This document shows positions 13,995 through 15,570 of a stretch of 64,000 nucleotides of DNA, piece after piece; within the stretch, counting starts at the first letter, position 1, and each line of letters starts with the position of its first letter. The position numbers and the translations under genes were made by a program. The notes below the pieces were generated by a model that did no database searches, was not told the origin of the DNA, and worked only from the letters and a program-made list of their open reading frames with translations. Source of the stretch: Symbiobacterium thermophilum IAM 14863 (GTDB lineage: Bacteria; Bacillota; Sulfobacillia; Symbiobacteriales; Symbiobacteriaceae); contig NC_006177.1 of the NCBI RefSeq assembly GCF_000009905.1, positions 2,852,001 through 2,916,000 of the forward strand, given 5' to 3'.

Positions 13995-14160
13995 GGTCAT
14001 CTTTGCGCACAGGCCTGCGAAGGTTTATACCATGAGAAAATGAAAAACCCGACGGGTACCCCGTAACCTTCGACGTCCTATCTCGTTAGTAAGGGCGATG
14101 GCAGACAGACAGACGCAGCTCGGGCGGCGCTGGACAGTGTTGACGGGAGGGACGCGCTGA

Positions 14161-14757
14161 ATGTTATCGTTGACGGACGAGCAATTGGTGGAACGGGCAC
14201 AGGAAGGCGATCGCTGCGCGCTGGGCGAGTTGATCAGCCGTTACGAGCAGCGTACCTATAATCTGGCCTACCGTTTAATGGGAAATCACGCCGACGCATG
14301 TGACGCAGCCCAGGAGGCCCTGGTGCGCGTCTGCGTGAGGCTTCACAACTTCCGGGGCGATTCCCAGTTCTCGACCTGGCTCTACCGGGTGGTGACGAAC
14401 ACCTGCCTGGACGAACTCCGGCGCAGGGGTCGGACGCGCTGCGCGTCCCTGGATGAGGCCATGCCCCTCGACGAAGGCTCCGTCCCGCGCCAGGCCGTCG
14501 ACGACTCCGACGGGCCGGTGGAATATGCGGAGCGCCACGAGGTGCAGGCGGCCGTGCAGCGGGCCATCGGGCGGCTCCCGTACGACTACCGGGTCGTGGT
14601 GATCCTGCGCGACCTCCACAACCTGAGCTACCAGGAGATTGCTACCGTCCTGGGCACCACGCTGGGCACCATCAAGTCCCGGCTGCATCGGGCACGGCAG
14701 GCCCTGCGCTGCATCATCGAGGACACCGAGGCCCATCGGCTGGACATTGCCGGATAG
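14161..14757 (+). CDS. ECF-type RNA polymerase sigma factor
   Basis: A 198-residue sigma-70 family protein of the extracytoplasmic-function class. Region 2 spans about residues 20-88 (YNLAYRLMGNHADACDAAQEALVRV... FSTWLYRVVTNTCLDELRRR) and region 4 about 128-185 (LPYDYRVVVILRDLHNLSYQEIATVL followed by GTIKSRLHRARQAL). No anti-sigma gene follows; instead a structured RNA region and an opposite-strand gene are found, so the sigma is an orphan here. GTAACC at 14063 and CGTTAG at 14084 resemble an ECF promoter and could mean autoregulation, but this is weak. GGGAGGGACGCGCTGA precedes the ATG. Confidence 0.88.
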   Translation: MLSLTDEQLVERAQEGDRCALGELISRYEQRTYNLAYRLMGNHADACDAAQEALVRVCVRLHNFRGDSQFSTWLYRVVTNTCLDELRRRGRTRCASLDEAMPLDEGSVPRQAVDDSDGPVEYAERHEVQAAVQRAIGRLPYDYRVVVILRDLHNLSYQEIATVLGTTLGTIKSRLHRARQALRCIIEDTEAHRLDIAG

Positions 14758-14843
14758 ATGAAACTTCTGTTCGTATGATTATTTCAGAAAAGTAACCCCT
14801 CGTTCGCTGTTCGCGTGGCGAAGGACCGTGGTAGACTCAAAGT

Positions 14844-15035
14844 GCAAGGGGCGCAGGGGATTGGCTGAAGAACCCGAAGCCCGCTGATTCGAGATCTCCG
14901 GATCCCAGAATCGCGACCCGGCCCGGTACGTGGAACCCGTTGTTCCGAAATCCTCTGTCGCTCCTTTTGGGCGCCCGGCTGTGTCCAAAGCCGGGCACCG
15001 CAACCCCCTGAAGGCAGCAGCCTCCAGGGGGTTGT
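14844..15035 (+). ncRNA. Candidate structured RNA with 6S-like fold
   Basis: No gene on this strand, yet strong ordered pairing exists. A 17-bp closing stem joins 14846-14862 with 14949-14966 (one bulged T, two G-T pairs). Inside it the 5' side of a bubble is unpaired (14863-14881), a terminal arm forms at 14882-14915 (CGC-T-GATTC...GAATC-GCG with inner GATC/GATC), and the 3' side carries a small hairpin GGAAC/GTTCC (14932-14946). This order matches bacterial 6S RNA in miniature. An 8-bp perfect hairpin (14973-14996) and a terminator-like hairpin (15002-15033) follow. TAGACT at 14832-14837 is a plausible -10 with TTCGCG at 14810. 6S RNA is an inference; another RNA class is possible. Confidence 0.45.
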
Positions 15036-15102
15036 TCGCGTGCGCGGCAGGGAATGCGCCATCTCACCCCGAAGAAGGCTCCGGGTGGGCAGGGCCGCGG
15101 GG

Positions 15103-15570
15103 CTACTCAAAGTTCCCGGGCGGGGCGTCCAGCCGCGGCTCCTGATAGTTGTCGGGCATCCAGCCCAGCTCCGCGGTCTTGCGCGCGGCGTTCTGCACCG
15201 CGTCCGGAGCAGCCTCCTGAGCGGCGTGCGCCGCGCTGTGCGCTGCGTCCTGCCCGGCGTATGTCGGTTCGGGCGCGCCCTGCACGGCCGCGGCCCGCTC
15301 GCCGGCGTCCTGTCCGGCGGTGAACTGGCCGCCCCCATCTTGCCCGGCCTCAGCCGGCGCAGTCGGCATGTCCGTCCCATCCGCGGTGAACAGGGCGGCA
15401 GGATGGGTGAGGGTCGGCTCCACGTTGCTCGTCGCATGGGCGCTGACGTTCGGCAGATCGGTGTCCTGGCGGTCGCCGTCTAAGGGTAGAGCGGTTTCAT
15501 CACCCGTCCGGGGCACGAACAGGAACCAGGCAATACCGAGCACAGCCAGAAAGAGCAAGAACCAGATCAT
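15103..15570 (-). CDS. Hypothetical protein with N-terminal membrane anchor
   Basis: A 155-residue protein. Residues 1-20 (MIWFLLFLAVLGIAWFLFVP) form one transmembrane segment without a cleavage motif. The rest is low-complexity, rich in Ala, Asp, Gln and Pro, with repeated GQDA and HAA-type words, and probably disordered outside or inside the cell. The end NYQEPRLDAPPGNF is less biased. GGGGGGAAGTCAGG precedes the ATG. No homologous family is recognised. It diverges from the exonuclease gene at 15651. Confidence 0.6.
   Translation of the reverse strand: MIWFLLFLAVLGIAWFLFVPRTGDETALPLDGDRQDTDLPNVSAHATSNVEPTLTHPAALFTADGTDMPTAPAEAGQDGGGQFTAGQDAGERAAAVQGAPEPTYAGQDAAHSAAHAAQEAAPDAVQNAARKTAELGWMPDNYQEPRLDAPPGNFE

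Follow-up and report, generated by a model that had tools for sequence, protein, structure and literature searches.

The window analysed here is a stretch of 64,000 nucleotides, corresponding to bases 2852001-2916000 of the single-contig genome (3,566,135 bases) of Symbiobacterium thermophilum IAM 14863. An RNA element lies in it between an ECF sigma factor gene and a convergent gene, and the locus comprises the following features (window positions):

14161-14757, + strand: ECF sigma factor gene, 198 aa, with Pfam Sigma70_r2 and r4_2
14783-14812, + strand: conserved upstream block (TTTCAGAAAAGTAACCCCTCGTTCGCTGTTC region), a possible upstream promoter or regulator site, in which CGTTCGCTGTTC is invariant in three species
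14832-14837, + strand: TAGACT, a -10-like box that probably belongs to a promoter of the housekeeping type, from the three-species alignment
14844-14968, + strand: conserved core domain of the RNA (P1, P2, P3, C-rich segment, P5), from the per-species folds and the consensus fold
14846-14862 with 14949-14957/14959-14966, + strand: closing helix P1, 17 bp
14863-14866/14878-14881, + strand: P2 hairpin GGCU/AGCC, 4 bp, from the folds of three species
14882-14915, + strand: P3 arm, from the folds and the consensus fold
14916-14927, + strand: invariant C-rich segment ACCCGGCCCGGU, from the three-species alignment and fold
14932-14946, + strand: small P5 hairpin, absent from the minimum free energy (MFE) fold of genome G002
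14970-14999, + strand: second hairpin, with a conserved stem and a loop that varies across species
15000-15035, + strand: third hairpin, a probable terminator with a weak T tail
15103-15570, convergent: gene encoding a small hypothetical protein whose N-terminus includes a membrane segment; no Pfam match

Orthologues of the ECF sigma factor are present in all five genomes of the family, those of the two sister genera at 69-73% protein identity, and the gene is, as the initial annotation had it, an orphan insofar as no anti-sigma gene adjoins it. Both other genomes of the genus, G001 (more distant) and G002 (close), keep the RNA element in the same place 3' of the ECF gene; the order LysR, ECF, RNA, convergent small gene, 5'-3' exonuclease is complete in G001 and can be followed up to the contig edge in G002. 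Considering that no gene on the same strand lies directly downstream and that the next gene is convergent, the element is not a leader. In the protein encoded at 15103-15570, the N-terminus is kept in G001 and the remainder diverges fast. The sister genera carry a plain hairpin with a short T-rich tail directly 3' of the ECF gene and lack the RNA element, a comparison limited by the G004 contig, which stops 181 bases downstream of that gene.

Folding of 14832-15035 on the + strand gave an MFE of -103.9 kcal/mol, compared with -77.2 +/- 4.5 kcal/mol for dinucleotide shuffles (z = -5.9, matched by 0 of 200). A good fold was likewise obtained for the opposite strand (z = -4.6), as expected for GC-rich inverted repeats; for the core consensus of the three species, the + strand reached z = -4.4 (0 of 500 column shuffles) and the opposite strand z = -3.0. 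The structure is thus real, better than chance and conserved. Most helices proposed in the initial annotation were recovered, namely the terminal arm (P3), the small hairpin of the 3' strand (P5) and two strong hairpins at the 3' side (14970-14999 and 15000-15035). The closing stem has the 17 bp described, with one bulge at 14958, and spans 121 nt rather than about 100. The supposedly unpaired 5' bubble strand at 14863-14881, on the other hand, is predicted to close as P2, its unpaired probability being near zero in S. thermophilum and G002, and to be mostly paired in G001. P1 is common to the predicted folds of all three sequences, P2 lies inside it on the 5' strand and the P3 arm follows directly, with P2 creating a predicted multi-way junction in place of an open bubble. 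The loop of the second hairpin is about 20-30 nt larger in G001 and G002, which have in common a GAGCAGGAGAG segment lacking in the copy of the window.

Conservation of the core exceeds that of the surrounding sequence in the more distant comparison: core identity with G001 is 76.8%, compared with 49% at fourfold-degenerate sites of the adjacent sigma gene and 43% in the flank downstream of the RNA. The respective values for G002 are 85.6%, 71% and 84%, and given such a similar downstream flank the close genome discriminates poorly. The relatives thus showed conservation and a little covariation, the absence of which the initial annotation would have taken to refute its proposal. Compensatory pairs are few, three in all among the three sequences: G-C to C-G in P3 (after a shifted bulge had been re-aligned by hand), C-G to A-U in the second hairpin, and C-G to G-C at the loop end of the third. 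Because P1 and P2 are invariant across the three species, covariation does not bear on them, and the evidence for these two helices consists of stability and conservation.

The element is restricted to the genus Symbiobacterium, as far as sampled. Among 61 genomes searched with BLAST, the three Symbiobacterium genomes alone contain it, and a covariance model of the core detected one copy in each of these, with no match in the two sister genera (one of which, G003, is only 77% complete). Under stricter filters than in this smaller search, the model gave no match in 154 genomes of the class and 398 sampled genomes of the phylum. Scans for exact 17-mers returned 33 stretches in genome_contigs and 5 in viral_contigs, numbers that are near chance by estimate; the model was applied to 15 of the 33 and to all 5, and of these loci the contig of G002 itself was the sole match. 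A plasmid search for the element gave no match, and no report of this RNA was found in the open-access literature that was searched. At gathering thresholds, Rfam searched across the whole window gave no match for the element, and the check with Rfam models, including 6S, yielded no meaningful match for any family; Scr6925 on the minus strand was rejected at 26.5 bits, below its gathering score of 50. The suggestion of a new RNA class thus stands for a conserved structured RNA outside Rfam, in the limited sense of a class confined to one genus. It adds a genus-restricted structured RNA candidate to a poorly studied lineage.

The -10 box TAGACT noted initially is present and conserved across the three species, G002 having the variant TAAACT, and in both G001 and G002 a TGT precedes the box; no -35 partner was recognised at the thresholds of the consensus scan, which called no promoter. 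Further upstream, the invariant CGTTCGCTGTTC 12-mer of the conserved block has three other exact copies in the genome, inside coding sequence as judged by eye. The last hairpin is strong and in that respect terminator-like, as described; its T tail (TTGTTCGC) is weak, and the hairpin is absent from the output of the terminator scan. Hence, of the hallmarks of a stand-alone sRNA gene, fold and conservation are present, and promoter and terminator are weak and uncalled by consensus scans. In the same scan, the interval from the ECF stop codon to the RNA contained no convincing terminator. Read-through from the ECF gene is thus likely, and the element may serve as the 3' terminus of the sigma transcript while also being an sRNA gene in its own right.

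On balance, 14844-15035 is probably a stand-alone structured sRNA gene of about 190-220 nt, restricted to the genus, with its own promoter and a probable action in trans. The RNA would comprise a compact core, in which the closing helix surrounds a multi-way junction, followed by a variable hairpin and a terminator hairpin. Transcription would start from an extended -10 promoter of its own, immediately 5' of 14844, and the RNA would double as the 3' terminus of the ECF sigma transcript, which lacks a clear terminator of its own here. More tentatively, its targets in trans may be mRNAs or a protein, for which the invariant C-rich segment and the CCGUU loop of P5 are candidate contact sites; a C-rich stretch of this type would be suited to base-pairing with the G-rich sequence of ribosome-binding sites. 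The genome also encodes Hfq. Two neighbours in the window were tried as partners, and neither the leader of the ECF gene nor the convergent gene gave a predicted pairing with the RNA that was better than for shuffles. The arrangement resembles 3'UTR-encoded sRNAs with their own promoter (MicL/DapZ type), which likewise lie directly 3' of a regulator gene and have a promoter-like site following the stop codon of that gene, as well as a terminator-like hairpin; in contrast to these, the candidate has a larger, more structured core, and its weak T tail is not typical of an Hfq-type 3' end. Should it prove to be expressed, the element would offer a clean example of a structured RNA gene that arose recently next to the gene of a sigma factor.

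Alternatively, the element could chiefly represent the structured 3' terminus of the ECF sigma transcript, serving as a 3'UTR-derived sRNA or in mRNA protection or termination, without a promoter of its own. This is possible, if rather unlikely: the element occupies the place taken by the ECF terminator hairpin in the sister genera and the upstream interval lacks a convincing terminator, but a conserved -10-like box and an upstream block directly precede the RNA, and a conserved multi-helix core of 125 nt exceeds what a terminator needs. It is doubtful, though conceivable, that the element represents a new class of multi-way-junction RNA which evolved within Symbiobacterium between the ECF sigma gene and its terminator, and which would sense a ligand or bind a protein (RNA polymerase or the sigma factor being possible partners) and would couple to the neighbouring ECF regulon.

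The initial annotation had proposed a shortened 6S RNA. The resemblance to 6S RNA (SsrS, RF00013) lies in the intergenic position and the superficial order of helices, with a long closing stem, a terminal arm and a small hairpin on the 3' side, and some bacteria possess two 6S RNAs. However, a search of 361 bases (14750-15110) with RF00013 gave no match at E <= 10, whereas the same model, as a positive control, detected a single ordinary 6S RNA at another locus in every one of the five family genomes, at 67-79 bits. In this genome, the canonical copy is as follows:

L001 1501-1695 (G000:C1:2589371-2589565), minus strand: canonical 6S RNA, 78.9 bits

The three genus 6S RNAs that were folded have an unpaired bubble strand of 18 nt, whereas in the candidate the 5' strand is paired as P2 in all three species, according to single-sequence prediction rather than probing. 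Compared with the 160-200 nt layout of 6S RNA, the closing stem is present, but the terminal arm measures only about 34 nt and the core 125 nt. Both testable features of 6S membership, the model match and the open bubble (the latter by prediction only), are thus lacking, and computation places the element apart from 6S RNA. It is accordingly very unlikely that the element is a second 6S RNA, or a shortened one, which would bind housekeeping RNA polymerase through mimicry of an open promoter, and a 6S-like function through RNA polymerase binding would have little in its favour. A 6S-like outline judged by eye from one sequence can mislead, the proper 6S RNA residing elsewhere in the same genomes.

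The chance that the element is the leader or body of an mRNA for a small protein of 35-37 codons is equally slim. An ATG follows AAGGGG, a ribosome-binding site, in two species (G001 and G002), and short ORFs span the core; yet the copy in the window has no ATG, and core indels of 1, 2 and 4 nt shift the reading frame from one species to another, so a conserved small peptide was rejected. A Y-RNA-like or other known RNA too diverged for Rfam is most improbable: end-paired architectures are similar in several RNA classes, but no meaningful Rfam match was obtained, and a Y RNA of the YrlA type was rejected as the Ro60/TROVE protein (PF05731) was not found in the single-contig genome.

Upstream of the ECF gene, a probable autoregulatory promoter, CGTAACC-N15-CGTTAG, is located at 14062-14089; the motif is recognisable in G002 and G003 and looser in G004. 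An ECF-dependent promoter for the RNA was rejected, as the genome has just two exact copies of CGTAAC-N15,17-CGTTAG, one at 14062 and one elsewhere, neither of them in front of the RNA. That sole other copy, at G000:C1:250635-250663 on the minus strand, precedes an ATG whose first codons resemble a signal peptide, which makes the gene a candidate member of the regulon.
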